This document shows positions 27,063 to 45,644 of a stretch of DNA of 64,000 nucleotides, piece by piece. How positions within the stretch are numbered: position 1 is the stretch's first letter; each line of letters starts with the position of its first letter. Where the stretch lies: NCBI RefSeq assembly GCF_020463795.1, contig NZ_CP080025.1:1739001-1803000 (forward strand), given 5' to 3'. The notes under the pieces are model-generated. The model was not told the origin of the DNA, made no database searches, and was given only the letters and a program-made list of their open reading frames with translations. The stretch is from Echinicola marina. Its GTDB lineage: Bacteria > Bacteroidota > Bacteroidia > Cytophagales > Cyclobacteriaceae. The translations under genes and the position numbers were made by a program.

Positions 27063-27078
27063 ATGACCATACATAAAG
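27063..27078 (+). repeat. Left attachment site (attL), 16-bp copy of the psd start
   Basis: ATGACCATACATAAAG here matches ATGACTATACATAAAG at 45629-45644 with one silent difference. It encodes MTIHK, the first five residues of Psd. After it the frame reads nine more codons and stops at 27105-27107, leaving a 14-codon stub. The pair of repeats bounds the integrated element. Confidence 0.75.
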
Positions 27079-27169: not shown

Positions 27170-27178
27170 TATGTTTGC
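27170..27178 (+). promoter_or_regulatory. Integrase promoter, -7 element
   Basis: TATGTTTGC matches TAnnTTTGc. A TTG at 27145-27147 sits 22 bp upstream, near the expected -33 position. The site overlaps one of the TTTGCAA repeats (27173-27180), so integrase binding at its arm sites could repress its own promoter; that last point is inference. Confidence 0.5.
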
Positions 27179-27202
27179 AACTAGTTTGAAAAATGTTTGC
27201 AA
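27173..27202 (+). repeat. GTTTGCAA repeats at the left end (possible integrase arm sites)
   Basis: Two identical GTTTGCAA octamers at 27173-27180 and 27195-27202, 22 bp apart. The same octamer occurs twice at the right end (45553-45560 and 45564-45571). Symmetric placement near both att sites fits arm-type binding sites of a tyrosine recombinase. Confidence 0.45.
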
Positions 27203-27218
27203 ATTTTTATATTCGATA

Positions 27219-28502
27219 ATGGCAACAGTAGATTTATATTTGGACACAAGGAGAGCACTCAAAGACGGTACCTATCCTTTGAAGCTTAGAGTTTCACATG
27301 AAAGGAAAACCAAGTATTTCAAAACAGATCCTTCATACAGTTTTAGTCTTAAGGGGTATGAGAAAATAATCAAGACCAAGAAAGGTTCTAGACTGGATGA
27401 GAATCAAGCAGAGATTAGAGATATTGTTTTCGCCCAGTTAAGCAAAGCCAGTAGTATAATTAAAGAGCTCGAGTTTTTTAATTTTGCAGCCTTCCAATTA
27501 AGGTTTACGGGAAAGGGAGACCGAAATGATATTCTTTTTCGTCTTGAAGAATTATGTGATTCAGGGAATAATCCAGGTAGTACCGGTGTAAACAAAGATG
27601 CTTACTCAGCATTGACCCATTATATCAATCGGGACAATCCTAAATTTATACCAGGGAAAAAGGGTAAGGGCAAAAATCAAAAAAGCGATATCATAAGTAA
27701 GCTACCGATGAATGCCATTACCCCAAAATGGTTGAATGAGTTTGAGGCTTGGCAAATAAAAAGGGGGCTAAGCCCAACAACTATTGCTATAATTCTAAAT
27801 AGGGTAAAAGCGGTATTCAATCAAGCAATAAGAGACCAAGAAATAGACCCAAACAGGTACCCATTCGGAAAAGGGAAATATCAACCTCCGGCACCTAGGA
27901 AATCAAAGAAGTATCTTAAAGATGATCAACTGGTTGAATTCTTTAAATATGAAGCTAAAACCAGCCCAGAAGAATTTGCAAAAGACTTCTTTATCTTTAG
28001 TTATTTGGCCAGTGGTATGAATTTGGGGGATATCTTTTTACTGAAGTGGTCAAACTTTAATGGTAGGGATAGCTTTAGTTTCTTTCGTAGAAAAACAGTA
28101 AGCCGAAGTACAGACCCAAAAGAAATAACGGTCCATTTAAATGAACACTTATGGGCTATAATCGATAAGCATGGAAGCCGGAAGATAAATAATGATTATG
28201 TTTTTAATATAGTGGATCCTTCAATGGATACCGAAAGAGCCTACGTGGTGATAAAAATGGCGATCAATAAAGTAAATGTAAACCTTAAAAAGATTGGAGA
28301 ATCATTGGGCTTTGATGTTCCTCTGACCTCGTACCATGCCCGCCATGCCTATGCCACTAAATTAATGAAGGTCGCTCCGGTTGCCTACATTTCAAAGCAG
28401 CTGGGGCATTCAAATATTCAAACTACTGAAGATTATCTCGGACAGTTTGAAAAGGATGAGGCTTTAAAATATGAGGCTAATCTTATTCCAAAGATTAATT
28501 AA
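27219..28502 (+). CDS. Tyrosine recombinase / integrase of the element
   Basis: 427 aa from the ATG at 27219 (MATVDLYLDTRRALKDGTYP is the usual Bacteroidota arm-binding N-terminus); an in-frame ATG at 27171 lies inside the promoter and is less likely. Domains: arm-binding (1-75), SAM-like core-binding (about 120-210), catalytic domain (about 230-420). Box II Arg is in YHARHAYATKL, box III His in QLGHSNIQTT, and the nucleophile Tyr is in EDYLGQF (about residue 406). The classical first Arg (GLR) is replaced by GMN in YLASGMNLGDI, as in several Bacteroidota recombinases. It should integrate and excise the element at psd. Confidence 0.93.
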   Translation: MATVDLYLDTRRALKDGTYPLKLRVSHERKTKYFKTDPSYSFSLKGYEKIIKTKKGSRLDENQAEIRDIVFAQLSKASSIIKELEFFNFAAFQLRFTGKGDRNDILFRLEELCDSGNNPGSTGVNKDAYSALTHYINRDNPKFIPGKKGKGKNQKSDIISKLPMNAITPKWLNEFEAWQIKRGLSPTTIAIILNRVKAVFNQAIRDQEIDPNRYPFGKGKYQPPAPRKSKKYLKDDQLVEFFKYEAKTSPEEFAKDFFIFSYLASGMNLGDIFLLKWSNFNGRDSFSFFRRKTVSRSTDPKEITVHLNEHLWAIIDKHGSRKINNDYVFNIVDPSMDTERAYVVIKMAINKVNVNLKKIGESLGFDVPLTSYHARHAYATKLMKVAPVAYISKQLGHSNIQTTEDYLGQFEKDEALKYEANLIPKIN

Positions 28503-28869: not shown

Positions 28870-29082
28870 GTGTATGTTATGTTTTGTTTAAACACTAAAA
28901 GCTCTAGCACTATAAAGGGGCTAAAAGGACTTGCCAATTTTCTCAATTGCACATTACCCACGGCTCAGCGGTACAAGTCAAGTGGGAAAATCCCTTTTTA
29001 TCAATTGACTAAAAGTGGGACCATCTATTTTGATAAGGACGAGGTTTTAAAAGCCCTAAAAAAAGGAGGTCAAAATGGATAA
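28870..29082 (+). CDS. Small HTH DNA-binding protein, DUF3853/excisionase-like
   Basis: 70 aa as written from a GTG at 28870; an ATG at 28879 would give 67 aa. GLKGLANFLNCTLPTAQRYKSSGKI is a helix-turn-helix of the MerR/excisionase type as found in Bacteroidota DUF3853 proteins, followed by TIYFDKDEVLKAL (wing). It could be an excisionase or early regulator. Its end overlaps the next gene by 8 bp, and the long repeat-rich leader lies directly upstream. Confidence 0.7.
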   Translation: MYVMFCLNTKSSSTIKGLKGLANFLNCTLPTAQRYKSSGKIPFYQLTKSGTIYFDKDEVLKALKKGGQNG

Positions 29083-29404
29083 GCCAACGATCCAGGAAGT
29101 AACCTTCAACAATCTCCCTGAAGCTATTCAAGTCCTATTGCAAAAAGTTGAGAAACTAGAAAGGCAATTAAGCCAAAAACAAGCTCCTGTTAAATTACCT
29201 CGGATTATTCCGATGGCTAAAGCCGTAGAGCTAACTGGCCGAAGTGCTAACGCCCTCAGAATTCAAATTAGCCAAGGTAATTTGAAATCGATCAAAAAGG
29301 ATGGATATCATTATTTCGACACGGAATACCTGCTATCCTGGATGGAAGGTAAAACTGGCGCCCCGAAAAAAGACTCATCTGAAATCCTCGTTGCCTCGAG
29401 GTAA
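29075..29404 (+). CDS. HTH-domain protein, 109 aa
   Basis: A short coiled-coil (QVLLQKVEKLERQLSQKQ, about 20-37) followed by an HTH domain with IPMAKAVELTGRSANALRIQISQGNLKSIKKDG and HYFDTEYLLSWME, resembling excisionase-family winged helix proteins. It overlaps the preceding HTH gene, so both are translated together. Probably regulatory for the element (excision or early transcription); exact role unknown. Confidence 0.65.
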   Translation: MDKPTIQEVTFNNLPEAIQVLLQKVEKLERQLSQKQAPVKLPRIIPMAKAVELTGRSANALRIQISQGNLKSIKKDGYHYFDTEYLLSWMEGKTGAPKKDSSEILVASR

Positions 29405-29486: not shown

Positions 29487-29810
29487 ATGAAAGCAAAAAA
29501 AGCTTGTCTTGGTTTGGAAGGCCGGACGACAAGCTCAGGAGACGGAAAGTCACTGGGCAAAGATACCAATGTGAAATGGTATAAACAAGAAATAGAAGTG
29601 TTTAACAGATTTTTTGGAGTACCCCAAAGCATGCTTCAGGTGGCCCTCCAAACGGATGTATTACGCGCGAATATCTGTCGCTATGTAGACAAATGGCTCA
29701 AAGAAGGAAAGGTAAAAAGAGTGTACAAAGGTATTTGCCCTATCACCAAGCGAAAAGTAGGAAAATACAGCACTGATCCGAAGTACTGGGAAGGAGGTCA
29801 CAATGACTAA
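29487..29810 (+). CDS. Hypothetical early protein, 107 aa, winged-helix-like
   Basis: Basic protein. QTDVLRANICRYVDKWLKEGKVKRVYKGICPITKRKVGKYSTDP looks like a recognition helix followed by a beta-wing, as in small winged-helix proteins, but no family is identified. It overlaps the next gene by 8 bp. Conserved placement in the early operon of the element suggests a role in replication or control. Confidence 0.6.
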   Translation: MKAKKACLGLEGRTTSSGDGKSLGKDTNVKWYKQEIEVFNRFFGVPQSMLQVALQTDVLRANICRYVDKWLKEGKVKRVYKGICPITKRKVGKYSTDPKYWEGGHND

Positions 29811-30389: not shown

Positions 30390-31367
30390 GCAAGGAAAAG
30401 ATGAACGGGTACTCTCTCAGTAGGGCATGGCACAATTTCGCTTTTGATAATCCAGACAAGGTAAGTCCTAAACATGGTGCACTGTTTTTTTTTTATTATC
30501 GAGCATTTCAACAGAATGGGCTGGAAGGATAAAGTCGGTTTACCTGCCTCATTGGCTATGGATGCTATTGGTGTAACATACAATACCTATAAGGGTGCCA
30601 TGAATGATTTGATTGACTGGGGCTTTATCCAAATGATTGAAAAATCGAAAAATCAATATAGTGCTAACATAATTGCCCTATCAAATTTTGACAAAGCACT
30701 TGATAAAGCACTTGACAAAGCATTTGCAGAGCATTTCACAAAGCACTTGCAAGGCAATTCACAAAGCATTTGCGACATAATAAAACAACTTAACCATCTA
30801 ACAATAGAACAAAAAAACAAGATAGTAACTATCCTTTCTAATAATGATAATGAAGAAAACAATGAAGATGAAATAGTAGAATCAAATGCTACTTCACCAG
30901 AAGAAGAACCTCCAAAATTCCCAGATCCAGAACAGCTAACTGAAGAGGGGAAAAAGGCTAATCAGGTTCTAGCAGAATATTTCGGGATCTCGGAGATTAA
31001 CCAGCCGAACCATTACATGGCCATTGGGAGGTTCGTGAATACCATGAGTAAAAAAGGAAAGCTGAGATATGTTCATGACCAATATTACTTCTACAAGCGA
31101 CTTAAAGAAAAAAATCCATCCTTTAAACATTCCTGGAAAAACTTTATTGGCTCTCCTGAAAAACAATATGAAGATGGTGCTTGGAATGCTGAGAACTGGC
31201 AACAGAAATATAAGGATTCTTTGAAAGTAGAAAATGACAATCCAAAGAGATTGAGCTATTCAATTAATTCACATGTAAGCCAGACCAATTACGCTCCCAT
31301 TTTCGAACGCACAAGAGAGCTAATGAGTGAATCCACAGAAAAAGAAAATAAGAACAATCAAAATTAA
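30386..31367 (+). pseudogene. Replication-initiator-like protein, frameshifted at a T10 run
   Basis: The frame that starts at ATG 30386 (MSKEKMNGYSLSRAWHNFAF) is coupled to the previous gene by ATGA but ends at 30532 after 48 codons. Removing one T from the T10 run at 30485-30494 joins it to the frame that ends at 31367, giving a 326-aa protein: an N-terminal winged-helix domain (GALFFFIIEHFNRMGWKDK, GVTYNTYKGAMNDLIDWGFI), a repeat-coded linker, an acidic stretch and a C-terminal basic part. This layout resembles DnaD/phage-O-like initiators of Bacteroidota phages. A downstream ATG at 30474 could still make a 297-aa protein lacking the first 30 residues. The indel may be real, a sequencing error or a slippage site. 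Confidence 0.65.
30688..30769 (+). repeat. Iteron array inside the initiator gene (putative replication origin)
   Basis: Seven near-tandem copies of a TTGACAAAGCAC-like unit: three of 12 bp (30688-30723), then 11, 12, 11 and 12 bp (30724-30769). The change between 12- and 11-bp spacing shifts the reading frame of the repeat, so selection seems to act on DNA rather than on protein. An AT-rich segment (about 30775-30880) follows, which could be an unwinding region. This resembles the lambda O gene, where the origin iterons lie in the initiator gene. Confidence 0.6.
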
Positions 31368-31373: not shown

Positions 31374-31754
31374 ATGACACAAGAAGAGAGAGTATCAGCC
31401 TTAACCGAAAAATTAGAAGGCGCACCGGAAAGCTACAAAGAAGCACGAATTAATAATCTTGGAAGAATGACATTCAAGGATGATGATGATTTCAACGGAT
31501 TTCTCGATGACATTGATACTGACATAAAAGAACTGCAGCAAATGCAAGCTGACAGCAAGATGAAAGGCTTTGGGGGCATTCCAAGAAGATCGAAAAAAGA
31601 TATCTCATCAGAAGCCGATAAGGAAAAGGTGAGTGATATTGTCAGCTCCATGATGGGGTTGCCCCCTAAAAAAAAGACAAGCCCCGAAAGCAAGTCTGAA
31701 AAAGATTCGACCACCAAAAATATTGTTAAAAACATAATGAGATGGGACAAATGA
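31374..31754 (+). CDS. Hypothetical protein, 126 aa, acidic then basic
   Basis: No family recognised. N-terminal half helical and acidic (DDDDFNGFLDDIDTDIKELQQM), C-terminal half rich in Lys and Ser with KKKTSPESKSEKDS, likely disordered. It starts 4 bp after the initiator stop and overlaps the next gene by 13 bp. Possibly a replication-associated or loader-like accessory factor, but this is only from position. Confidence 0.55.
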   Translation: MTQEERVSALTEKLEGAPESYKEARINNLGRMTFKDDDDFNGFLDDIDTDIKELQQMQADSKMKGFGGIPRRSKKDISSEADKEKVSDIVSSMMGLPPKKKTSPESKSEKDSTTKNIVKNIMRWDK

Positions 31755-32440
31755 AAAAAATCACTATCAAAACCAATGAAACAGACAAGCGCAATGCGCT
31801 TGCTAAATTGAATCAATTCAGAATTAACCATTTACCGGCCTTGGTGGAGGCTTACGCTAAATTTTCCGAGGAAACAGAACTTGAACCATTGACCAAAAAT
31901 ACCCTAAAAGGAATTATTGAAAATGGTATTTCTCCGGTTGAGAGAAAAATAGAAGAAACGGTGAAAACCTTCCCAAAGCTTACCCAAGGGTATGCTCGAG
32001 AAGAAGGTTATAAGCACTTGAACACCATTTTGAAACCAGTTATTGAAGGGATGCAAAAATGGAAACAGAATCTCGCTCCGAGTGATGGCAGTTTTCCGCA
32101 CGAGCTTTTGGATGTTGATAAAATGCCTATCAGCCAGGATTTTCAACTGACCGTGGAGGGTGTAAAGGAGTATGTTGAAGCGAATAAAGAACTCTTTGAG
32201 ATATCGATTAGCGACCCCGTCGATATTGAACTTTACAATAGACAACAGGTCCTTTCAAAAGCCTTCAATAGCTTCATTGAATACGCTCAGGAAAACGATG
32301 TGGTACTTCCCAATCTTGTTGCTGAAATTATCGGTATGCAGGGCGTTGGGAAAGATTTCCGATCCAAACCTAATCCCTCTTTGTTTCTGCCACATCGTAC
32401 TAATGAGCAGATAAAAAAGTTAATGTCCTGGAAAGATTGA
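31742..32440 (+). CDS. Hypothetical protein, 232 aa
   Basis: Helical, soluble, no recognised domain; an ATG at 31751 (MKKITIKTNETDKRNALAKL) is an alternative start that would cut the overlap with the gene before it. Contains NLVAEIIGMQGVGKDFRSKPNPS, which is not a P-loop. It overlaps the following gene start by 4 bp if the TTG at 32437 is used. Function unknown. Confidence 0.55.
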   Translation: MGQMKKITIKTNETDKRNALAKLNQFRINHLPALVEAYAKFSEETELEPLTKNTLKGIIENGISPVERKIEETVKTFPKLTQGYAREEGYKHLNTILKPVIEGMQKWKQNLAPSDGSFPHELLDVDKMPISQDFQLTVEGVKEYVEANKELFEISISDPVDIELYNRQQVLSKAFNSFIEYAQENDVVLPNLVAEIIGMQGVGKDFRSKPNPSLFLPHRTNEQIKKLMSWKD

Positions 32441-32732: not shown

Positions 32733-33035
32733 ATGCCAAAAAAGGGAATTACAAATAATCCATCAGGAAGGCCGAAGGGAACGCCAAACAAAGCTAACAG
32801 GCCTTTAAAGGAAAATATTTCAAACTTCCTGCAAAAGAACTGGACCAAAATCGAGCGGGATATCAATAAACTTGAACCACGGGACAGAGTGGCCATTTAC
32901 GAAAAGCTATTATCGTATGTCATGCCTCGGCTTAAAGCTGTTGATGCTAATGTTTCACTTGAGCAAAAGCTTGAAAACCTTGATACAGAGCAACTAAACA
33001 AACTGATTGATCATATTTTACTTGAAGAATCATGA
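32733..33035 (+). CDS. DUF5681-like protein (GRPKGTPNK motif), 100 aa
   Basis: N-terminus MPKKGITNNPSGRPKGTPNKA matches the basic GRPKGxxNK motif of DUF5681 and of proteins that precede the terminase genes in many phages. The rest is helical (RDRVAIYEKLLSYVMPRLKAVD). It could be a DNA-packaging-associated protein, yet no large terminase follows. Overlaps the next gene by 4 bp (ATGA). Confidence 0.6.
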   Translation: MPKKGITNNPSGRPKGTPNKANRPLKENISNFLQKNWTKIERDINKLEPRDRVAIYEKLLSYVMPRLKAVDANVSLEQKLENLDTEQLNKLIDHILLEES

Positions 33036-33369: not shown

Positions 33370-33717
33370 ATGAAAAGTATAGAAAACCAAAGAACGCTCA
33401 TGCACGAGCTAAACACAATCAGAAAAAGCTTGGCCACTCTGGAACAAATACCAGACACGGACCATCTATTCAAAAACCTAGTGTACACTTGTATGGTAAC
33501 AGTCGGAAACCTCCACGCCTACCACGTTAAGCAGCTGAATGAATTTGGTAAAGAAATAGCACAAATAAATAAGGCCTCAATTAATGTCCATAACAACGTG
33601 AAATACAATTTGAGCCAATTGGATGAAGATGAGATCGAGCAGCTAAAAGTATTAATGCAAGAAGCTGAAAAGATCCAAAATGAGGCGAAAATCAGGAATA
33701 AGCTATTGGGTAACTGA
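33370..33717 (+). CDS. Hypothetical coiled-coil protein, 115 aa
   Basis: All-helical protein with a heptad-like pattern near the C-terminus (VKYNLSQLDEDEIEQLKVLMQEAEKIQNEAKIR). No family recognised. Last gene of the early operon; a 213-bp gap with a strong hairpin follows. Confidence 0.5.
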   Translation: MKSIENQRTLMHELNTIRKSLATLEQIPDTDHLFKNLVYTCMVTVGNLHAYHVKQLNEFGKEIAQINKASINVHNNVKYNLSQLDEDEIEQLKVLMQEAEKIQNEAKIRNKLLGN

Positions 33718-33930: not shown

Positions 33931-34140
33931 ATGGAAAACGCTAAAAATCAAATCAACGAAATCAATTCTGGACTAACCAAAATCCAAGAGGGACTCGATC
34001 AAATCAAGTCGAATGAAAGTGCTTTTGGGGATGATCAATTCTTTTTTGATTGGTATGCAGCATTAAGCGAACGAGTTAAGGTATTCCAAACAGCAGTGGA
34101 ATGCGAGCTTGAAAACCAAAATGAAATGATCCATGGCTAA
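33931..34140 (+). CDS. Hypothetical small protein, 69 aa
   Basis: Helical 69-aa protein (MENAKNQINEINSGLTKIQEGLDQIKS), acidic, coiled-coil-like. Overlaps the next small gene by 8 bp. Function unknown. Confidence 0.5.
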   Translation: MENAKNQINEINSGLTKIQEGLDQIKSNESAFGDDQFFFDWYAALSERVKVFQTAVECELENQNEMIHG

Positions 34141-34288: not shown

Positions 34289-34318
34289 CAAAAGGTTTAA
34301 CAGCTTAAAGCAACGACA

Positions 34319-34343: not shown

Positions 34344-34519
34344 CACGGTTTAAGAAATAGATATATCCCCGCCAAAATCCCTAACACAAGCACAACCAAA
34401 ACTACATCACTGAGGAATTTTAAATTATTGTCTATTCTCTCAAGATGATACGCCTGCTTTTCTTTTAAAGCCCTATCAGAAAGGTCTTCTATTTTTTGTT
34501 TTGTACCGAATCCAAACAT
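34343..34519 (-). CDS. Small membrane protein, 58 aa, opposite strand
   Basis: Read by hand: ATG at 34519, stop at 34343-34345. A charged helical N-terminus (MFGFGTKQKIEDLSDRALKE) is followed by one hydrophobic helix (about 37-55, VVLVVLVLGILAGIYLFL) and a short KP tail. It is the only minus-strand gene of the element. Holin-like size, but a single helix and a long charged head do not prove it; it may instead be a small membrane effector. Confidence 0.5.
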   Translation of the reverse strand: MFGFGTKQKIEDLSDRALKEKQAYHLERIDNNLKFLSDVVLVVLVLGILAGIYLFLKP

Positions 34520-34714
34520 AGTAGTATTGTTTATTTAATGAATAAAACTAACAGTTTGTTTCCGTGTATGAAATACCCCATCTATGGTATTTTTATTATC
34601 ACTGTTTAGCTGAACAGTGGTGTTTCACTGATTGATTAGCTACCATTTCCATTTGTTTTTAAGGTACTTAGCAATAGATATTTTTTTAGCTACACGAAAA
34701 AAAAGAATTAAGAA
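34520..34714. promoter_or_regulatory. Divergent intergenic region before the tail genes
   Basis: 195 bp, AT-rich, with an inverted repeat AAATACC (34570s) / GGTATTT and a CTGTTCAGC-like inverted pair nearby (GCTGAACAG at about 34610). It should hold the promoters for the minus-strand small gene and for the tail operon. No clear TAnnTTTG was chosen. Confidence 0.35.
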
Positions 34715-35185
34715 ATGTTAAAAATCAAATCAAAATTCAAGGGGAAAAACCTTGAAAAATTTCTGCTTAACCAAGTGGAAAAGATCGAGAGAAACTTAGA
34801 AAATGAGCTCCTTATAGTTGGGTTAGAGTTTGTTAGGGATGCTAGGATAAAGGCTGATTTTACCGACCGAACCGGAAACCTAAGAAGCTCAATTGGTTTT
34901 GTGCTTTTAAAAGATGGACGACCAATATTCCAGAATTTCGAAGAATCAACAAAAAAGGGGACCGATAAAAAGACAGGAGTTGATCAGGCCATAAAATATG
35001 TTAAAGAAGTAGCTGGAGCTGAACTTATCCTTGGTTATAGTTTAGTTGTAGTTGCTGGAATGGACTATGCCGCCTATGTCGAATCTCAAGGGAAAGACGT
35101 GCTTACGGGGTCAAGCCTGATAGCAGAAAGAAACTTGAAAAAAGCGTTTAAAAATTTAGAAAGGAGGGTGAACAATGCCAGTTAA
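34715..35185 (+). CDS. HK97 gp10-like tail-completion / head-tail connector protein
   Basis: 156 aa. The pattern of HK97-gp10-like proteins is visible: an N-terminal helix, then VRDARIKADFTDRTGNLRSSIGF (about 50-72), a beta part, then VVVAGMDYAAYVESQGKDVLTGS (about 112-134). In siphophages this protein completes the tail or joins it to the head. Here it is directly followed by, and overlaps by 11 bp, the tape-measure gene; the genes for tail terminator, major tail protein and chaperones normally in between are absent. Confidence 0.75.
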   Translation: MLKIKSKFKGKNLEKFLLNQVEKIERNLENELLIVGLEFVRDARIKADFTDRTGNLRSSIGFVLLKDGRPIFQNFEESTKKGTDKKTGVDQAIKYVKEVAGAELILGYSLVVVAGMDYAAYVESQGKDVLTGSSLIAERNLKKAFKNLERRVNNAS

Positions 35186-38100
35186 ATTTGACGATGGGAG
35201 ATTGAGTTTTGAGACCGGACTAGATAATTCAGGTCTGAAAAAAGACGCAAAAAAGGCAGAGCAAATTCTTAGTGACCTGAGGAAAATGCAAGAAAGAAAC
35301 GAAAGGGAGTTTATTGCTAAGATGCAGGGTATTAACGATAGCATCCAGAAGAGTTCTCAAGAATCCAGAAAGCAAATAAAAGGACTTGGGACAATAGCCG
35401 GAACACTTGGGGGAGCTTTGGCAGGTGCTTTTTCCGTTCAGTTGCTAATCCAATTTGAAAAGCAGTTAGCTAGAATTGTTGGTGAGTTCGAAAAAATGGA
35501 AGCCGTTTTAACCAATACATTGGGAAGTAAATCCGATGCGCAAGCGGCAATGGCTCAAATAGTCCAATTCGCAAGCCAAACACCTTTCCAGGTTGATCAG
35601 CTCACAGATTCTTTTGTAAAGCTAGCCAACCAAGGGTTTAAACCTACAGTTGATGAATTGAGGAACTTGGGAGACTTGGCCAGTAGTACCGGTAAGGACT
35701 TTGATCAATTGGCAGAGGCCATAATTGATGCCCAAGTAGGTGAATTTGAAAGGTTAAAGGAATTCGGGATCAGGGCCAGTAAAGAAGGTGATAATGTAAC
35801 CTTCACTTTTAAGGGGGTTCAGGAGCAGGTTGAGTTCACAGAAAGCTCAATCAGAAAATACATACTAAGCTTAGGAGATGCAGAGGGAGTAAGTGGTGCC
35901 ATGGCTGCTATATCTGATACAGTAGCGGGCAAAATTTCCAATCTAGATGACAATATTACTGTTCTAGCAAAAACAATTGGAGACAGGCAATCAGGGGTTT
36001 TCAAGACTTCATTAGATTGGTTAAATGAGTTCATATCATTGGCCACATTGGCAGTCAGCAGTACAAGTGAGATCCGCAACCAAATGCGCCTAGTTACTGG
36101 AGCTGCAGGATTCCAGCAAACGAATAAGGAAGTTGACGAGCTTATAAGCAAATTATCAAAAAGAATGGGGATGGAAGAGGCAATCAATAAAGCGGTTGAC
36201 CTCACTATTAAATCCTATAGGGACCTTTCCGATAATATCGATGGGGACATTACATTTGGCAGATTGAACAAGCAAATCCATGAGCTGGAAAAGTACAGAA
36301 AACAATTGCTTTCTGGTTATTCCAATGGAGGTATTGAAACCTTAAATACGCTTAATAAGGAACTTGCGAATCTTCAAAAACAAAGATCGGAAATTGACAT
36401 CACAAACACCGATGCACTCAATAAAAATCTTCAACAACAACTTAAGATCAAAAAGAAGATTGAAGCTGTTGACATCAAAGCGATCAAAAACCAAAAAAGC
36501 ATTACCAAACAGATATCATATTTTTCAGATCGCCAATTTTTGGATCAAGCTGAAAAACTTAAGGGCAGTCTACTGGATCAAACCGAGACTTTCAATAAGT
36601 TCCAAGAAAACCTTGGTAAGGCAGGTCTTTCAACTATGGAGAATACAGGAGCAAAAGCTCTTGATCTTCAAAAAGAGTTTTACCAAAGCACAGCTATATT
36701 AACAGTTAGAGCGGCAAAAGTACTTCTCCAAAAAGCGGAAAATGAACTTGATTCCTCTACAATCACCAAAGAAAGAAAAGAAGAGCTAAAGCAGTTTATT
36801 AGGGATTTAAATAAGTTCCAGCTTGATGATATTTTCAAACTCGGTAATGCTCTTGGTAATTTAGGACAATCACTAATCCAACTTGGAGAATCTTCTCGAT
36901 CAGCAGGGCTAGCCAATATTGGCGGTTTATTATCTGGACTTGCATCAGGGGTAAATGATGTATTGGTAGCGTTTGATAAAGAGGCTAGAGATTCAGATAA
37001 AATATTCGCTGGGGTTAATGGCCTGATCAAAGTAATTGACACTCTTTCCAGCGCAGCCGCCCAAAGAAAAAAAGCAGAAGAGGATTATTACAGATCGGTG
37101 ATTGGCTTTCAACAAGATTATAATCTAAGTCTCCAGGAACAAATCAGGCTACAGTCGATTCTTGGTGAAAGTGCTTTCATAACCGATTATGAAGGGAGGA
37201 TTAAAGACGGTTTAGCAGCCAGCGAAAACGCAATAAGCAACTATCAAAAAGCTATTGAAGCCCTTACGGGAGGAACTGTAAAGTCAGGTCAAAGGAATGC
37301 TATTGATTGGGGTAATGTAGGTCAATCTGCCGCAGGTGGAGCAGCTGCAGGAGCCGCAATAGGTTCTATTGTTCCTGTAATTGGTACAGCCATAGGCACC
37401 ATATTTGGAGGAATTGCCGGTGCTATCGGAGGCTTATTCGGAGGCAAAAAGAAAGTTGATAATTATGTTCCCCTATTGCAGGAATACCCTGAGCTTGTCC
37501 AAGAAACATCCGAAGGGGTTTATGAAATCAACCGTGGATTAGCTGAATCTCTTATCCAAAACGATTTATTGAGCGATAGCACAAAAGAACTTGTCCAAGA
37601 TGTTTTAGACTGGGGTGATGCTTTAGATGAGGCTAGGGAGCAAATAAAAGGTGTTATTTCTGATTTAGCAGGGTCACTAGGCAATGATTTAAGGGATGAC
37701 CTTGTAGAATCGTTTAAAGCCGGTGAAGATGCAGCTAAAAAGATGGGAAAAACAGTATCTGAAGTGCTAGAAAACATCCTTTCGCAATTGTTGTTCAATA
37801 AAATCTTTGCGGACAACTTTGAACAACTAGAAAAGGATATGGCCGCAAGTATGGATATTGGAGGGGATCAATCTTGGACGGATGATCTAGCACGATTCTA
37901 TAAAGGCTTTGCAGCAGAGCAGAAGGACTTTAATAAGCTATTAGAGGAAAACAGGAAACAATCTAAAGCATACGGATTTGATGTATTTGGGGCCTCACCC
38001 ACCGCTAAACAGGGGCTAACTAGACAAGTGCAGTCACTAACAGAAGATACTGGCAAAGAATTATCAGGGCTTTTTAGAGGGTTTTACGATCTGCAAAAAA

Positions 38101-38285
38101 AGAATAACAATACTTTGTATACCCACATGAAACATGGAGTTGATCAGTTGATGGAGCTTCAAAGAATCGAGTACAATACTAAAATGAACATAGTCAAATG
38201 GGATCAGGCTATTCCCATATTTAGGCAAATTCAGGAAAACACCAAAGCGAGTAAAGGTAATAGAGACTTAGGTATAAACGACTAA
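35175..38285 (+). CDS. Phage tail tape-measure protein
   Basis: 1036 aa, the largest gene of the element. N-terminal part contains a hydrophobic patch (about 71-94, GTIAGTLGGALAGAFSVQLL), then the TMP signature around NTLGSKSDAQAAMAQIVQFA and TPFQVDQLTDSFVKLANQGF (about 120-165), long coiled-coils, and a glycine-zipper membrane-inserting segment (about 716-757, GGAAAGAAIGSIVPVIGTAI). TMPs set tail length and help DNA entry. A long TMP of this size would suggest a tail of about 150 nm if the usual 0.15 nm per residue holds. Confidence 0.9.
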   Translation: MPVKFDDGRLSFETGLDNSGLKKDAKKAEQILSDLRKMQERNEREFIAKMQGINDSIQKSSQESRKQIKGLGTIAGTLGGALAGAFSVQLLIQFEKQLARIVGEFEKMEAVLTNTLGSKSDAQAAMAQIVQFASQTPFQVDQLTDSFVKLANQGFKPTVDELRNLGDLASSTGKDFDQLAEAIIDAQVGEFERLKEFGIRASKEGDNVTFTFKGVQEQVEFTESSIRKYILSLGDAEGVSGAMAAISDTVAGKISNLDDNITVLAKTIGDRQSGVFKTSLDWLNEFISLATLAVSSTSEIRNQMRLVTGAAGFQQTNKEVDELISKLSKRMGMEEAINKAVDLTIKSYRDLSDNIDGDITFGRLNKQIHELEKYRKQLLSGYSNGGIETLNTLNKELANLQKQRSEIDITNTDALNKNLQQQLKIKKKIEAVDIKAIKNQKSITKQISYFSDRQFLDQAEKLKGSLLDQTETFNKFQENLGKAGLSTMENTGAKALDLQKEFYQSTAILTVRAAKVLLQKAENELDSSTITKERKEELKQFIRDLNKFQLDDIFKLGNALGNLGQSLIQLGESSRSAGLANIGGLLSGLASGVNDVLVAFDKEARDSDKIFAGVNGLIKVIDTLSSAAAQRKKAEEDYYRSVIGFQQDYNLSLQEQIRLQSILGESAFITDYEGRIKDGLAASENAISNYQKAIEALTGGTVKSGQRNAIDWGNVGQSAAGGAAAGAAIGSIVPVIGTAIGTIFGGIAGAIGGLFGGKKKVDNYVPLLQEYPELVQETSEGVYEINRGLAESLIQNDLLSDSTKELVQDVLDWGDALDEAREQIKGVISDLAGSLGNDLRDDLVESFKAGEDAAKKMGKTVSEVLENILSQLLFNKIFADNFEQLEKDMAASMDIGGDQSWTDDLARFYKGFAAEQKDFNKLLEENRKQSKAYGFDVFGASPTAKQGLTRQVQSLTEDTGKELSGLFRGFYDLQKKNNNTLYTHMKHGVDQLMELQRIEYNTKMNIVKWDQAIPIFRQIQENTKASKGNRDLGIND

Positions 38286-38286
38286 T

Positions 38287-40419
38287 ATGCACATTTATAG
38301 GAATGGGGCTATCATAGCCTCCACACCCATAGACGAAAATACTGTGCTCACCTATCAGTTAATGGGTGAACATAAAGTAGCCTGTAACATAGTAAGGCAA
38401 TCCCCACTTGAAATAAAAGTTGGTGATTATATTATGGTAAACGAGGAACGGTTTATCATGAATCAAGATCCAGTAGTTAAAAATGAGGCAAACTTCTACT
38501 ACAATATTATATTCGAGGCTGAGATATACACCCTATACAATAAAATATTGATGGATGAGGGGTCAGCTATATTTACCTATTTTGGCACACCTGAAGAGTT
38601 TTTGACTTTATTAATCAATAACATAAATTCAATTGACAGTGACTGGACCTTAGGAGATGTGGAGGCCATGGAACCCAAATTTATATCCTTTCAGGGTGAT
38701 AGCTGTAGGTCAGCATTAACCAGGATAGCGGAAACCTTCAAGCTCGAATATAAGGTAAAAAACAAAGAAATATCGCTAAGCAAATCAATAGGAGTAGATA
38801 CACCTTATACATTCCAATATGGCAGGAATAACGGATTGTACTCGTTGACTAGGCGTTCTATTGATAACAACAACATAATAACTAGGCTTTATGCTTTTGG
38901 TAGCACCCGAAACCTTTCAGTAAACTATAGGGACGGCCAAAAGAACCTTGTATTTGAATCGAAGTATTTAGAGGCGAATACAGACCTCTATGGCGTTCGT
39001 GAAGGTATTGTAACCTTTGAGGATATTTACCCCAACAGAACAGGAGAAGTAACCTCCACAAGCGAAGAAACCAAGGTTATCGATACCTCCATTGACTTTG
39101 ATATCAATGATTATTTGTTAGCTGGCCAGACTGCAAAGATCGTTTTCAAATCTGGAGCTTTGAGCGGATACGAGTTTGAAATCACCAATTATGATCATGG
39201 TACAAAAGAGATAACGTTCAACACCTTTACTGAGGCCAATGATTATGTTTTACCAAATGAAATCAGCAAGCCAGAGGTAGGTGATAAATATACCCTTATC
39301 GGTATTGATATGCCCCAAAGCTACATTGATGCAGCAGAGGCAAAGTTATTGGAGAAAGCTCAAGAAAGGTTAGTCCAGGTAAGTTCTCCAAGGGTAACGT
39401 ATGAGCTCGAAATGGATCGTATCTATATCAGACAAAAGGGGCTGAAAAACAATATTTTCCCAGGTGACAGAATCAGGGTATTGGATGATAAATTGGGCAT
39501 AGATCAAATGATAAGGATTAGTAGCGTGTCATACCCGTTAAAGCAACCCGATGTTATACAAGCCACAATATCCGATCAAGTAACTTATACTACCTCAGAG
39601 AGGATCATAAAAGAAACGGTCAACAATAAGAGCAAGATCAATATAGAAGAAAGCACTAGAGCGGAAGGTGATAGGCTGAACCTTCAAAAGATCAAAGCTA
39701 TAAACGCTGAAATACTCAACCTGATTGTTAAGAACCTTCGTACCAATGAAACTGGGCAAAGGATTGAGATTTTGGAGGCTGAAAACTCACTCAAGTTCTA
39801 TGATCAGGATGATGAGCTAGTGTTGCAGATTGATGATGATTTGGGCAACGATATAGATGGTAATCCTATCAGTGGATTAAGGGTGACCAATCCAGCAAAC
39901 GGAAGGACAAGTTATATTTCAGCAGGGGGAATGTTTACTAATGCCGGATCAGTGCCTTTTATATCAGAGGCAGCAGGAAGTAAGACTAATGCAAGTATAG
40001 CAGGACTATTGTTTGATAGGAATACAGATCCTAATGGGATCAGTGCCGCCGTTGCTGGTTTGGACGGCACAAGCTCGGGAGATAGTGCCAGTTATGGAGG
40101 TTGGTTCAATAGTGTTTGGTTCGGAGGCATTCATTTGGCTATACGGTCGATAACCGCAGACCACACTATATTAAAGACAGATTCTTTTATAAGCTGTGAT
40201 AATTCAACCGCCATAACCGTAACATTGCCATTAAGTCCAAGAAAAGGAGCAACATATTTTATAAGGCGAAATAATGCCAGTGGAGTTTCCATAGCTTCAG
40301 GATCCGCAAATATTAAAGACAACGGAACGCCTGTAAGTTCAATTGGTGTGCCCTCACAGGGGGATTTGGTAAGAATAACCTGGGAGGGGGGTTATTGGCT
40401 ATTTAATAAGATGGGGTAA
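38287..40419 (+). CDS. Phage tail tip / fibre protein
   Basis: 710 aa, starting 1 bp after the tape-measure stop. The N-terminal 430 residues resemble tail-associated (Tal/gp27-like, prophage endopeptidase tail) proteins, with GDRIRVLDDKLGIDQMIRI as a hub-domain end. A coiled-coil linker (about 445-500) leads to a beta-rich fibre region. The C-terminal 80 residues (ADHTILKTDSFISCDNST, TLPLSPRKGATYFIRR) are a common fibre head domain of phages. It should form the distal tail and bind the host surface. Confidence 0.82.
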   Translation: MHIYRNGAIIASTPIDENTVLTYQLMGEHKVACNIVRQSPLEIKVGDYIMVNEERFIMNQDPVVKNEANFYYNIIFEAEIYTLYNKILMDEGSAIFTYFGTPEEFLTLLINNINSIDSDWTLGDVEAMEPKFISFQGDSCRSALTRIAETFKLEYKVKNKEISLSKSIGVDTPYTFQYGRNNGLYSLTRRSIDNNNIITRLYAFGSTRNLSVNYRDGQKNLVFESKYLEANTDLYGVREGIVTFEDIYPNRTGEVTSTSEETKVIDTSIDFDINDYLLAGQTAKIVFKSGALSGYEFEITNYDHGTKEITFNTFTEANDYVLPNEISKPEVGDKYTLIGIDMPQSYIDAAEAKLLEKAQERLVQVSSPRVTYELEMDRIYIRQKGLKNNIFPGDRIRVLDDKLGIDQMIRISSVSYPLKQPDVIQATISDQVTYTTSERIIKETVNNKSKINIEESTRAEGDRLNLQKIKAINAEILNLIVKNLRTNETGQRIEILEAENSLKFYDQDDELVLQIDDDLGNDIDGNPISGLRVTNPANGRTSYISAGGMFTNAGSVPFISEAAGSKTNASIAGLLFDRNTDPNGISAAVAGLDGTSSGDSASYGGWFNSVWFGGIHLAIRSITADHTILKTDSFISCDNSTAITVTLPLSPRKGATYFIRRNNASGVSIASGSANIKDNGTPVSSIGVPSQGDLVRITWEGGYWLFNKMG

Positions 40420-40459
40420 AAATATCTTAATTCGATTTTTTAGGTTCAATTCGGGGGAG

Positions 40460-40492
40460 AGGGTACTCATAAAGTGAGTGCCCTTCTTTTTA
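40460..40492 (+). terminator. Terminator of the tail operon
   Basis: AGGGTACTCA (40460-40469) pairs with TGAGTGCCCT (40475-40484; one G-U pair) around TAAAG, followed by a T-rich run. Confidence 0.8.
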
Positions 40493-40564
40493 TAATTGCA
40501 AAAATCTGGTTAACCGCAATCATATTGTTTTGTAATTGCAGATTGAAAGGCTTGATGAAGACGA

Positions 40565-40692
40565 AAGGGTGTCGGTTATAGTGGACACCCTTGGGGGGGG
40601 AATACTTAGATGAACGACGAACGACCTATGTTTAATATAGGTCGTCAAGGAGATTAGATGAAAAGAATACCGTCGTTTTAAACGACGGTATT
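40565..40692. repeat. Three consecutive stem-loops (possible structured RNA)
   Basis: Stem 1: AAGGGTGTC (40565-40573) with GACACCCTT (40584-40592). Stem 2: ACGACCTAT (40621-40629) with ATAGGTCGT (40637-40645). Stem 3: AATACCGTCGTTT (40666-40678) with AAACGACGGTATT (40680-40692). Stems 2 and 3 share ACGAC/GTCGT arms. Perfect 9- to 13-bp arms close together in a noncoding gap suggest a small RNA or protein-binding operators. Confidence 0.5.
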
Positions 40693-40999
40693 AAAGGAAA
40701 AAGAAAGGAAATATCTAAATATAAAAAAGGTTAAAGAATAGGGGCTGTTTGTGAAATTATTTAAATGTTAGGCTTGTGTAGTGCGTTATAAATTAGGGGG
40801 GTAGGATTATTGGTGAGTTCTATTTAATTAGGAGGGGTTTGTAATATTTGAATTTTGATAATTAATACCCTATTTGTGGTATTTTTTTATAATGACAAAT
40901 TGTCTAATATTGAAATTAAATTCTGTGATCTGTGTAATATTAAGGTCATAGATGTAGAATCAGGAATTTTAATTGAATAGTAAAAACTACTAAAAGAAC

Positions 41000-41998
41000 A
41001 TGGCAGGCCATAAATTAAAACTTAACTCCTACTCCATTAGGCTGAAAAAGTATAGAAAAAAAGATGTTGGAGATGTGTTGTTTGAAGAGTATTTTGACAC
41101 ATTTAGAACTGAAAGTGATGATTCAACTGTAAATTACAATATTCTTTTTAGAAGGTTTTTTGACGGTTTTGTTAAATCATTTAATTCGGAATATTTAGAG
41201 GATAAAGACAAAACAAAGGCTTTTACTATTTCAGATTCAGTAAATCATAGTCCTTCAAATTTTATAATAGATGGTTTCTTTGAAGGAGGTTTAACGGGAA
41301 TAGAACAGTATGTTGAGAACAAAAAGAGGAGAGGAGAAAAAAAACCAATAAAAAAAGATGATGTATCTTCTCTTCCTTTTTATTTTTTGTTTTGGTTTCC
41401 CAGGGACACTAATTATGGCGTCGTTATGATTCAAAGCTATAATAATTCTACAATAAATTCTCTTATTAAAACTCATTTGAGACGTTATTTTAACATCAGT
41501 AAATTCACTTTTGATGAAGACATGTGTATTACTAAGAAAGATAAAGATGATTTTTTTAATCAGTCAAAAGTGCAAGAATTATCATTTTTAAATATAATGG
41601 AAACTACTAAAGATGGTGAATTTTCAACTTTACTTGGTGGTCATAAGAAATATAAGGTTGAAGTTAGGATTAAAAATATTGATGAAAATAGTAATGTGTT
41701 TTTCAGGAAGTATAAGGATTTAAAAAAATCTGTTAATGATTTGTTTGATTTGAGTATAGAAGATTCTAAGGTGATTGAAAGGCATGAGGCTAAGGCATAT
41801 TATAAGACAGAAACATCTAGTTCTCATGCTGTAATTAGTGATCACAAGAATTTTATTCCATCTATGGTTCTAGATGAAAGTTTGAAAAAAGAAGATAGCC
41901 AAATACCAGATTTAGATAAAATTCGCGCTTATTGTCGCACTTACTTGAAGCAATTGCAGGTTGAAAATAAATACAATAGCAATTTTACATTTAAGTGA
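41000..41998 (+). CDS. Unknown soluble cargo protein, 332 aa (candidate defence gene)
   Basis: Low-GC gene, unlike the tail genes before it. No signal peptide or membrane helix. The N-terminus (KLKLNSYSIRLKKYRK) and a central beta block (SLPFYFLFWFPRDTNYGVVM, then IQSYNNSTINSLIKTHLRRYF) give the look of a two-domain alpha/beta protein. No family is certain; the layout recalls soluble partners of two-gene phage-defence pairs. It is 41 bp upstream of an IS-broken membrane-protein gene and the two probably form one operon. Confidence 0.6.
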   Translation: MAGHKLKLNSYSIRLKKYRKKDVGDVLFEEYFDTFRTESDDSTVNYNILFRRFFDGFVKSFNSEYLEDKDKTKAFTISDSVNHSPSNFIIDGFFEGGLTGIEQYVENKKRRGEKKPIKKDDVSSLPFYFLFWFPRDTNYGVVMIQSYNNSTINSLIKTHLRRYFNISKFTFDEDMCITKKDKDDFFNQSKVQELSFLNIMETTKDGEFSTLLGGHKKYKVEVRIKNIDENSNVFFRKYKDLKKSVNDLFDLSIEDSKVIERHEAKAYYKTETSSSHAVISDHKNFIPSMVLDESLKKEDSQIPDLDKIRAYCRTYLKQLQVENKYNSNFTFK

Positions 41999-42039: not shown

Positions 42040-42531
42040 ATGAAATTCATTTTAATTGCAATGGATATTTTAAGCCAAAAATGGAAAATTGAATTTAAGA
42101 TTTATTTATTGTTCCTGTTCTTGTTTTCGGTCACGATTTCTTTGTATTCAAAGATTGACACAGATATTATGGGGACTATTAGTTCCTTTGTGGGGTTGTT
42201 TAGTGGACTGATGTTTTCTTTTTCTTTTGTTCTTTTCGAAGCGTCAAAAAAAAAGAAGTCAGAATTAACCCATATTTTCAAGGAATTAAAGACAAACTAT
42301 GTGAATTTTGTGAGTAAGCAAGAGCTTCCTGAAAGTGATTTGTACAATATTTCAGATGTTAATTACTTACTCAGATACATTGATTTTGCTAAAAATTCAT
42401 TTAAGCTAATTGTTTGGCTAATTGTTGTTTCAATTTTGATTTTTATTGCAGTAATTTCTTTAGGATTTGCAATAGATCTTCCTTTTTTTCAGAAAATACA
42501 AGGTGTTTTGAACAAAACGGGAGTCTTTAGT
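42040..42531 (+). pseudogene. Membrane protein gene of the cargo pair, 5' part, broken by IS21
   Basis: 164 codons remain before the IS21 insertion; the present frame runs on into the IS to 42648. Three hydrophobic helices are visible (IYLLFLFLFSVTISLYS; MGTISSFVGLFSGLMFSFSF; LIVWLIVVSILIFIAVISL) with a charged loop between the second and third. Joining this part to 45182 after removing the IS and one copy of the 7-bp duplication restores an open frame of about 194 aa with a fourth helix. An ATG at 42061 is an alternative start. Confidence 0.75.
42525..42531. repeat. IS21 target-site duplication, left copy
   Basis: CTTTAGT is repeated at 45175-45181 on the other side of the IS. Seven bp is within the range made by IS21-family elements. 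Confidence 0.85.
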
Positions 42532-42781
42532 TGTATATTCCGATTCATGTTGACCACCTGTTCCAGTGATGCTGACCACTTTTTTCCGATGATGTTGACC
42601 ACCCCCCTTCTGGGTATCAACTTTTGTCGAAGGGTAAAATTCCGGTGATATTGACCACTGTCAATCCGGCCATGTTGACCACCACTTTAAGTGGTCAGAA
42701 TGGCCAGAATGACATTATTGACCACCTTTAATTTTTCAGTTATCGTTTCCTTTACGGTTGATTTAAAACCAACCGTAAAGC

Positions 42782-44329
42782 ATGGCAGGAAAAACGATAA
42801 CCATGAGTAATCTCAAACAGATAATTCGCCACCGTGACAACGGAATGGCACTGCAGACCATCTCCAAAACCTTGGGAATTGCCCGGAACACGGTCAAGAA
42901 GTACCTTCAGCTGATTGATTCCAAAGGTTTTTCTTACGGAGAGCTTTTGTCCATGAATGACGAAGAGCTTGATGCCCTACTTTCTGATCCGGACCATGTT
43001 TCAGGGGAGCGGTACCAGGAGCTTATATCTTTTTTTCCCTATATGGAACCGGAGCTTAAACGGACCGGTGTGAACCGTTGGGTCCTGTGGGGAGAATACA
43101 GACAAAAACATCCTGACGGATACAGTTACTCACAGTTCTGTGAAAGCTTCAGGCAGTGGCGTACCGGTCTATCTGCCAGTATGAGAATTGAACATGTTCC
43201 GGGAGATAAATTCTATATAGACTTTACGGGTGATAGGCTGTCCATAGTAGATCCTGTAACAGGTGAACTCACTGATCTGGAAGTGTATGTTGCCACACTC
43301 GGAGCCAGTCAATACAGCTATGTAGAAGCCATTCCCTCCCAAAGAAAAGAAGACTTCATAGCAGCCACTGAAAATGCTTTACATTACCTGGGCGGTGTTC
43401 CCAGGGCCCTGGTGCCCGACAACCTCAAAAGCGCGGTCACCAAAGCCGACAAGTATGAACCGGCCATCAACCCCGATTTCCTGGACTTTGCCAACCATTA
43501 CGGCTGTGTGGTCTTTCCGGCAAGGAGCAGGAAGCCGCAGGACAAGGCCTTGGTGGAAAAGACCGTCAGCATTGTCTACAGCAGGATATACGCCCCGCTC
43601 AGAAACAAAGTTTACCATGACATCAATACACTGAATGCGGATATACGGCACTACCTCAATATCCATAACAATACCCCTTTCCAGAAAAGACCGGAAACAA
43701 GGAAGGAGCTTTTCGACAGGGAAGAAAAGGGAACCCTGGCCCCCCTGCCTGCCGAAAGATATGAACTCAAACAGTTCAAGTATGCCACCGTCACTAAAAC
43801 CTCCCACATATCCCTGAACCCTGAAAACCATTATTATTCTATTCCCTACAGGTATATCGGCAAAAAAGTCAAGGTTGTGTACTCAGCCAGTTACGTTTCT
43901 GTTTTCTACGATGGGGAAAGGATCGCTTTTCATAAAAGAAGCCTTAAGGAGCGCGGATACACTACGGTCCAGGACCATATGCCTTCAGCCCACAGGTTTG
44001 TAAGTGACTGGAACCCTGAATTCTTCCTGAACTGGGCAAAAGGGATACATCCTGAAGTCCGGCATTATTTACAGGTTATCCTCGACAGTTACCCGTATCC
44101 GGAACAGGCCTATAAAAGCTGTCTGGGGATTTTGGGATATGATAAAAAGGCAGGCAGGGAAAGGCTCATAAACGCAGTAATACGTGCCAAACACTACAAC
44201 ACTTATAATTATTCGGTCATCACCAGAATACTCAACAGCGGGATGGATTCAATCCCTTTAGATACTGAAAACAAGTCCGATAAATCAGTTGACCACGAAA
44301 ACATAAGGGGAGCGGAAAGCTTCAGGTAA
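42782..44329 (+). CDS. istA: IS21-family transposase IstA
   Basis: 515 aa. N-terminal HTH (MALQTISKTLGIARNTVKKYL, about 18-38), then an rve (DDE) core starting at FYIDFTGDRLSIVD (first Asp about 144), the second Asp in LVPDNLKSAVTKAD, and the Glu in KALVEKTVSIVYSRIY about 35 residues later. C-terminal beta-barrel (HISLNPENHYYSIPYRYIGK). Complete. Confidence 0.95.
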   Translation: MAGKTITMSNLKQIIRHRDNGMALQTISKTLGIARNTVKKYLQLIDSKGFSYGELLSMNDEELDALLSDPDHVSGERYQELISFFPYMEPELKRTGVNRWVLWGEYRQKHPDGYSYSQFCESFRQWRTGLSASMRIEHVPGDKFYIDFTGDRLSIVDPVTGELTDLEVYVATLGASQYSYVEAIPSQRKEDFIAATENALHYLGGVPRALVPDNLKSAVTKADKYEPAINPDFLDFANHYGCVVFPARSRKPQDKALVEKTVSIVYSRIYAPLRNKVYHDINTLNADIRHYLNIHNNTPFQKRPETRKELFDREEKGTLAPLPAERYELKQFKYATVTKTSHISLNPENHYYSIPYRYIGKKVKVVYSASYVSVFYDGERIAFHKRSLKERGYTTVQDHMPSAHRFVSDWNPEFFLNWAKGIHPEVRHYLQVILDSYPYPEQAYKSCLGILGYDKKAGRERLINAVIRAKHYNTYNYSVITRILNSGMDSIPLDTENKSDKSVDHENIRGAESFR

Positions 44330-44358
44330 TTATCAAACATATAACCGATCACACAATT

Positions 44359-45084
44359 ATGACACAGAGCATCGCATTGAACCAGATGTCCAAAATGAAG
44401 TTTCACGGAATGATGGAAGCATACAAAACCATTCTGGACAGCAACAAACATCATGATCTCAATCCCGAAGAGCTTATAAACCATCTCTTGCAGGCAGAAT
44501 GGGAAGAAAGAGAGAACAGGAAAATCAACAGACTGTACAAAACGGCAAAGTTCAGGTACAGTGCCACTGTTGAAGAGCTTGAGTTCTCTCCAAACCGGGG
44601 GCTGGATAAAATGCAGGTCCTCAGACTTGCTGATATGTCCTTTATTAAACGAAAAGAAAACATACTGATCACAGGAGCAACAGGGGCCGGCAAAAGCTAC
44701 ATTGCTTCGGCCCTGGGAAACCAAGCCTGTATGCAAGGGGTCAGAACCCAATATTATAATACCACCAAGCTGTTCCCGAAACTCAAAATGCTGAAAGCTG
44801 ACGGCTCATATATCAAAGAGATAGCGAGAATAGAAAAACAGGATTTATTGATCCTGGATGACTTCGGCATTCAGCAACTGGATGAAATGGCAAGAATGGC
44901 CCTGCTTGAAATCATAGAAGACCGCCATGGAAGGGCTTCAACAATAGTGGTATCACAACTTCCGGTTACAAAATGGTTCGAAACCATAGGTGACAGTACC
45001 ATAGCCGACGCTGTTCTCGACAGACTGGTGCACACCGCACACAGAATCGAGCTAAAAGGAGAATCAATGAGAAAAAAACAATAA
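44359..45084 (+). CDS. istB: IS21-family helper ATPase IstB
   Basis: 241 aa AAA+ protein related to DnaC. Walker A in ITGATGAGKSYIASAL (about 107-118), Walker B in LLILDDFGIQQLD (about 155-167), sensor region in TIVVSQLPVTKWFE. It regulates target choice for IstA. Starts 29 bp after istA. Confidence 0.95.
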   Translation: MTQSIALNQMSKMKFHGMMEAYKTILDSNKHHDLNPEELINHLLQAEWEERENRKINRLYKTAKFRYSATVEELEFSPNRGLDKMQVLRLADMSFIKRKENILITGATGAGKSYIASALGNQACMQGVRTQYYNTTKLFPKLKMLKADGSYIKEIARIEKQDLLILDDFGIQQLDEMARMALLEIIEDRHGRASTIVVSQLPVTKWFETIGDSTIADAVLDRLVHTAHRIELKGESMRKKQ

Positions 45085-45174
45085 CTTTAACAGCCTCCAA
45101 ACGGTAACTGAAAACCCTAATTGAAAGGGTGGTCAGGATGACCGGATTGGTGGTCAAGATCATCGGAATATACA

Positions 45175-45628: not shown

Positions 45629-45644
45629 ATGACTATACATAAAG
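45629..45644 (+). repeat. Right attachment site (attR), first 16 bp of psd
   Basis: ATGACTATACATAAAG is the start of the intact psd gene and matches attL at 27063-27078 except C to T in the wobble position of codon 2 (ACC versus ACT, both Thr). Confidence 0.75.

Follow-up and report, generated by a model that had tools for sequence, protein, structure and literature searches.

The window analysed in this study is the whole stretch of 64,000 nucleotides (G000:C1:1739001-1803000, hereafter genome G000, a single contig of 5.69 Mb). It contains a bounded element flanked by psd, at the 5' end of which it is integrated, and by a glutamate dehydrogenase gene; the integrase is its first gene, followed by replication-like and hallmark genes and, further downstream, by a cluster of three tail genes (Table 1). 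Copies of the 16-bp start of psd, differing in a single base, lie at 27063 and 45629. The empty site was found in the close relative G005, in which the left flank of the window continues directly into an intact psd. Each of the other 10 genomes of the genus compared lacked an insertion at psd, and the site is considered element-free in them because their 3.7-kb psd loci include the dehydrogenase gene. The size of about 16 kb given in the preliminary description agrees with the element without its IS21-family insertion (~15.9 kb), but falls short of the full extent from attL to attR (18.6 kb). The copy of the element in the window, bearing this IS, may be inactive. At the right end of the element, positions 45460-45628 resembled, by eye, the psd upstream region of five congeners (L098, L100, L102, L103 and L104), from which that of G001, G005 and G008 differed, also by eye; the likeness could have been left by old insertions as a scar or could stem from promoter exchange by the element.

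Table 1. Features of the bounded element of the window (positions refer to the window).
Feature	Position	Strand	Basis or remarks
Bounded element	27063-45644		18.6 kb; ~15.9 kb without IS21 insertion
attL core ATGACCATACATAAAG	27063..27078		displaced copy of psd start; 15/16 bases identical to attR
Tyrosine integrase	27171..28502	+	PF00589, PF13102, PF17293
w1, small gene kept in G318	28870..29082	+	59% to L039 8767-8970
w2, candidate excisionase	29075..29404	+	phrog_66 excisionase, E=0.001; homologue in G318
w3, in 3/4 elements	29487..29810	+	phmmer 9.7e-26 (G318), 2e-18 (G062)
w6, candidate replication initiator, in 4/4 elements	30474..31367	+	phmmer: G062, G318, G004, phage G041
w7, truncated homologue of scaffold-position phage protein; candidate capsid-size switch	31374..31754	+	phrog_5824
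w8, hallmark gene of four elements	31742..32440	+	strong in G000, G004, G318 and G062 of 390 genomes
w10, weak DUF5681-like	32733..33035	+	PF18932, E=6e-4, below cutoff
w12, common to G004	33370..33717	+	58-59% identity
w13, upstream of tail cluster, in 4/4 elements	33931..34140	+	phmmer 5.3e-11 (G004), 4.3e-9 (G318), 2.1e-5 (G062)
NECK, head-tail neck protein	34715..35185	+	phrog_5377, phrog_5
TMP, tape measure protein, 1036 aa	35175..38285	+	tape-measure PHROGs
TAL, tail hub plus presumed tip, 710 aa	38287..40419	+	PF06605
w18, orphan, 332 aa, cargo position	41000..41998	+	no PHROGs, Pfam or PADLOC hits
w19, membrane-protein-like (by eye), 3' end enters IS	42040..42648	+	no PHROGs, Pfam or PADLOC hits
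IS21-family insertion	42532..45174		13-base inverted match at ends
istA	42782-44329		PF22483
istB	44359-45084		PF01695
attR core	45629..45644		at psd start codon; psd ORF stays intact

The tail genes are tightly arranged, NECK and TMP overlapping by 11 bases and TMP and TAL being separated by 1 base, and the cluster is not a product of chance, since it consists of long intact ORFs with strong homology. NECK matched phrog_5377 (E=9.6e-36) and phrog_5, labelled 'tail completion or Neck1' (3e-6), and the neck genes of phage loci were 32-50% identical to it, the highest value corresponding to the neck of the siphophage of genome G041. Its AlphaFold model (pLDDT 66) gave no match in the PDB at E<=0.001. 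TMP matched many tape-measure PHROGs (best labelled, phrog_5062, 3.3e-41), PF20155 at 3.2e-8, under the cutoff of that family, and, weakly, a PHROG labelled 'endolysin' (2.8e-4). TAL matched PF06605 (Prophage_tail) over its cutoff (2.5e-20), as well as PHROGs with a head label, namely phrog_1067 ('minor head protein', 2.5e-13) and others of the head category called 'virion structural protein' (5.8e-12 and 4.6e-10); on account of the PF06605 match and of the alignment with tail proteins of annotated phages, these head-labelled PHROGs are read as tail-hub/tip families. The annotated order in Porphyromonas phage005 is neck, tail completion, major tail, hypotheticals, TMP, hypothetical, distal tail and tail protein, and the order in Riemerella phage CRP34, with some roles assigned by synteny, is similar. 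From the order of phage005, the window keeps the first gene, TMP and the last gene, packed together. Relatives of the phage genes of the window were found in Flavihumibacter and in phages of Riemerella, Porphyromonas and Bacteroides.

Scans of the 20 annotated ORFs of the element and of istA with PHROGs recognized no terminase, portal, capsid, tail tube, Dit or lysis gene. The combination reported in the preliminary description, gp10-like (here NECK), tape-measure and tail-tip genes without head, packaging, tube or lysis genes, was confirmed with PHROGs and Pfam, and no capsid or terminase, considered there as possibly hidden among the small genes, was identified in profile searches; w7 is head-related but is not a capsid gene. 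The proposal of w10 as a small terminase subunit is unsupported, its sole basis being the weak DUF5681-like match, and a tailocin was rejected, as no tube or sheath was identified. No tail assembly chaperone was recognized beside TMP, either by comparison with the chaperone-position genes of three reference phages or with PHROGs; the chaperone-position gene of the G041 phage itself matches just an unnamed PHROG. At the cargo end of the element, the two orphan genes w18 and w19 (41000-42648) constitute a candidate cargo system.

A profile of w8 gave matches in 6 of the 390 genomes sampled from the family, clear in G000, G004, G318 and G062; those in G070 and G112 (about 1e-4) were dropped, as they fell in long frames and no phage genes were matched in the 20-kb loci. 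In the remaining samples, which overlap with each other and with that of the family, w8 was found in 2 of 390 genomes of the order (G000 and G062), 1 of 395 of the class, 1 of 291 of the order around G062 (searched with a single protein), 1 of 72 of the genus of G318 and 1 of 2 of the genus of G062. It was found neither in the viral contigs by pattern scans nor in the phage collection by tblastn. The w8 element family is thus rare as sampled, with four members in three genera. Viral contigs with w3 or with a gene similar to the 210-aa gene of G004 (L087-L092; fragments or parts of large contigs) yielded no further satellite with TMP in the DNA covered. As a target for structure prediction w8 was dropped, the single-sequence AlphaFold model having a pLDDT of 50.

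The four elements occupy three insertion sites, the start of psd (G000 and G318), tRNA-Arg (G004) and tmRNA (G062), with repeats of 40 bp at tRNA-Arg in G004 and of 17 bp at tmRNA in G062, and a looser repeat at psd in G318. Their sizes are 18.6 (15.9 without IS), 16.9, 14.4 and 13.3 kb; phage satellites range from about 7 to 20 kb (PMC13376191). As discrete integrated elements of 13.3-18.6 kb with integrase and att repeats, they bear out the satellite size noted from the window. The element of G318 comprises an integrase 49% identical to that of the window, which is likewise inserted at psd, followed by w1, w2, w3, w5, w6, w7, w8, a 240-aa gene, w13, w14, TMP (1544 aa), TAL (930 aa), a 302-aa gene and psd. 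That of G004 carries another integrase, an excisionase, a nuclease, w6, w7, w8, a 210-aa gene, w12, w13, an Ig-domain gene and TMP (1554 aa), and that of G062 an integrase, w3, w6, w8, a 205-aa gene, a ParB-like gene, w13 and TMP (1540 aa). Thus, TMP is present in all four elements, always as an intact long frame, TAL in two and NECK in one.

The preliminary description had regarded independent copies of the same minimal set as a sign of a satellite, and a head module in close relatives at the place corresponding to 33346-34715 as a sign against it. Three more bounded elements with hallmark genes and an intact TMP were found, one of them also at psd, and the head module was absent at that place in all three; no relative with hallmark genes plus a head module was present among the w8 hits. 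Head and packaging genes were identified in none of the four elements by PHROGs scans, part of the ORFs of the relatives (some of the smallest, the integrases, w6, w12 and w13 of G004, and TMP of G062) being assigned by homology, and on these scans the lack of a complete virion gene set holds in all four. No satellite small terminase subunit was firmly identified in the four elements; the xis-like genes of G004 and G062 gave secondary hits to terminase small subunits, below their excisionase/DNA-binding hits. The Ig-domain gene of G004 matches families of the head and tail categories through about 80 Ig-like residues. An Ig-domain gene of this kind lies in opposite orientation immediately upstream of TMP both in the G004 satellite (L046 9629-10387) and in a Riemerella phage (L047 12353-13045). 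Resident prophages of two tested types, searched with terminase alignments A9 and A11, were not found in G000, G004 or G318; these alignments were used instead of phrog_2, which gave weak hits only and missed the terminase of the Mu-type prophage of G062.

Two of the small genes have relatives in phages. The w6 homologue of G062 matches phrog_18020, replication initiation O-like (1.1e-5), and w6 of the window just an unnamed PHROG (0.0038). w7 aligns with residues 131-203 of the 228 residues of phrog_5824 (E=8e-9), and in three of the four elements it corresponds to the C-terminal half of a scaffold-position phage protein, the full-length relative of which is encoded ahead of the capsid gene, with one small gene in between, in the G041 phage and in Porphyromonas phage005. 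A profile built from four phage forms finds w7 in G000 (1.5e-16), G004 (4.1e-14) and G318 (9.7e-5), the E-values being given at a nominal database size of 1000. The w7 of G318 (80 aa) has no PHROG match and was assigned by phmmer and by this phage-only profile. In G062 an 84-aa gene was rejected as w7, as it scores under several of its shuffled copies. The phage collection gave nothing for w7 at E 0.01, and its relation with phages is based on the PHROGs, phmmer and profile results. Judging from gene position, the phrog_5824 protein is presumably a scaffold. A staphylococcal study located the scaffold gene between the minor and major capsid genes and described CpmB of SaPIs, and by hypothesis also Rcm, as scaffold mimics yielding small capsids (PMC12409344). 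Since w7 is a truncated relative of a scaffold-position protein, and given these mimics, a CpmB-like role in capsid size can reasonably be inferred for it. w7 resembles CpmB and Rcm in that its phage relative is encoded between a minor and a major capsid gene, the place of the scaffold in that study, and in being a shortened form; the likeness concerns gene position and truncation.

TMP and TAL are separated by 1 and 14 bp in the two TAL-bearing satellites versus 430-7746 bp in 10/10 phage or prophage loci, a count that covers the loci with both genes and leaves out several other TMP loci without detected TAL. The gene or genes between them, present in the 10 phage loci, are absent from both of these elements. 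This junction, together with the four elements, their common genes, the intact TMP and the missing head genes, argues for a satellite family and not for a one-off deleted prophage. The latter had been the other reading of the preliminary description: a prophage would have been stripped by deletion of head, packaging and most tail genes, the present tail genes being remnants. It is now unlikely, the same reduced set occurring at different sites; although homologues of NECK, TMP and TAL occur in complete phages, the window TMP is shorter than the other three and an IS lies inside the element, the three additional elements (three sites among the four) share w8, w13, w6 and an intact TMP, two of them also w3, the genes are tightly packed, and no w8 match came from the phage collection or from the viral contigs scanned by pattern.

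On a tree of 18 TMPs, of which the coarse result alone is trustworthy because the protein is a mosaic, the proteins of G318, G004 and G062 form a group in which that of the G041 siphophage is nested, and that of the window is placed elsewhere, beside the TMPs of prophages with Mu-phage-type terminase and of an element in G147. A single clade of satellite TMPs was rejected, since the label needs 3 changes on this tree. The window TMP is considered a mosaic because it resembles short TMPs (L041 and L042) in its N-terminal part, with 49-57% identity, and TMPs of the prophages of G117, G062:C2 and G265 in its C-terminal part, with 43-56%. We read these data as a TMP slot that is kept and the content of which would be exchanged with phages. 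The TMPs of three elements (1540-1554 aa) are about as long as that of the G041 phage (1537 aa), with 1036 aa in the window, and a change of length is therefore probably not the common purpose. The C-terminal domain of TAL is 45% identical to that of G318, 43% to that of phage locus L067 and 34% to that of phage locus L036; it was rejected as satellite-specific, being also found in these two loci and partly in Cellulophaga phages. An isolated remnant of this domain, in two adjoining pieces and with no other phage gene matched nearby, was observed in G007 (L050, about 17131-17872). In addition, a prophage with Mu-phage-type terminase (L037/L057, G062:C2) shares its genome with the G062 satellite; the C-terminus of its TMP and its TAL are 44% and 45% identical, respectively, to those of the window.

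The siphophage prophage of G041 (G041:C5; L069 and L070) resembles the elements in NECK (50%) and TAL (42%), possesses relatives of w6 and w7, and its TMP is 47% identical to that of G062 and, to that of G004, 57% along the first 590 residues and about 40% over the whole length. It differs from them in having portal, capsid, tail tube and connectors, and no match to w3 or w8 was found within 39 kb. On these similarities, it is a candidate helper lineage.

Taken together, the element is probably a member of an undescribed phage satellite family of one bacterial family, apparently of the Bacteroidota to judge from the integrase type and the hosts of related phage genes. It would refit a helper siphophage with tail parts of its own. 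During replication of a helper siphophage in the host cell, the satellite would excise and replicate, and the helper would supply capsid, terminase and tail tube. The truncated scaffold w7 would probably shrink the helper capsid, and the satellite TMP and hub/tip, in the window also NECK, would be built into the helper tail. The product would be a chimeric virion in which the satellite sets tail length, DNA-injection properties and receptor tip, and the exchange of TMP content with phages could match it to new helpers or hosts. A satellite that re-tails its helper had already been put forward in the preliminary description: the satellite half is upheld by the three further bounded elements, and the re-tailing half is suggested by gene content and by the precedent of the PLEs discussed below. 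TMPs have a role in DNA injection. More likely purposes of the satellite TMP than length would be DNA injection, evasion of interference directed at TMP, or exclusion by resident prophages.

A different function, in which TMP and TAL would be decoys poisoning the tail assembly of the helper, as a defence and not as part of the satellite's own virions, is quite unlikely; satellites and prophages are known to direct defences at tail assembly (PLE11 Rta, PMC12987554; Tai, PMC11364771), but full-length intact TMPs, a neck and a tip would exceed the needs of a decoy, and the satellite TMP of PLE11 is present in virions and required for transduction (PMC12987554). It is very improbable that the element moves by other means with the tail genes as passively captured cargo, for which the lack of an identified helper and of an identified packaging gene of its own could speak, but TMP is kept in 4/4 elements, from different phage lineages, and no conjugation gene was found by Pfam in 15 of the 20 window ORFs, the relatives being covered by one gene each of G062 and G318.

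Within the re-tailing satellite family, we tentatively raise the possibility that both ends of the helper virion are reprogrammed, the truncated scaffold shrinking the head, and the satellite's own TMP and receptor tip (and neck) being swapped in. If true, the satellite would decide host entry, and an exchangeable tail slot would let it change helpers or hosts.

With regard to known systems, cf-PICIs (capsid-forming PICIs) bring heads and borrow tails. The element shares with them an integrase and part of the virion but, unlike in them, no head gene was identified in the element of the window. Apparently nearer to the cf-PICI type is L044 (5197-14744, G147:C55), an element of about 10 kb with an integrase, an excisionase-like gene, a 615-aa TMP-like gene and an HK97-type capsid gene (phrog_10, 2.8e-46), in addition to ATPase-like and portal-like genes recognized by eye; it has the look of a capsid-forming satellite with a TMP in addition. 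According to a figure legend, cf-PICIs sometimes carry a putative tmp (PMC12987554, Extended Data Fig. 10).

The closest precedent is that of the PLEs of Vibrio cholerae, satellites with chimeric tails and their own TMP published in 2026 (PMC12987554). PLE11 virions contain the satellite TMP and hub, the phage versions being absent; their tails are 10 nm shorter, and deletion of tmp causes about 99.9% loss of transduction (PMC12987554). The authors indicate that a satellite-encoded tape measure had not been reported outside the PLEs and that PLEs are the first chimeric-tail family, and leave open the benefit of chimeric tails (PMC12987554). The elements described here are similar in the satellite-encoded TMP, accompanied by a hub in PLE11, and in the remaining head and tail parts coming from the helper, shown there and expected here. 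They differ in their siphophage-type genes, in a hub fused to the presumed tip, in the neck protein of the window, in the lack of a detected tail assembly chaperone and in their hosts, the comparison being made with the published description of the PLEs; a Vibrio host and an ICP1 helper, as in the PLEs, do not fit the window, given the hosts of the relatives of its phage genes. No earlier description of this satellite family was found among the matches listed for the open-licence literature, preprints excluded. Satellites with their own TMP thus have a precedent in PLEs, and the siphophage-type variant, apparently in Bacteroidota, is new as far as the listed literature shows. Why satellites bring their own tape measure can now be tested in terms of helper choice, DNA injection, superinfection exclusion and host range, and the occurrence of such a lineage in apparently another phylum, in two cases with hub/tip, suggests a convergent strategy.
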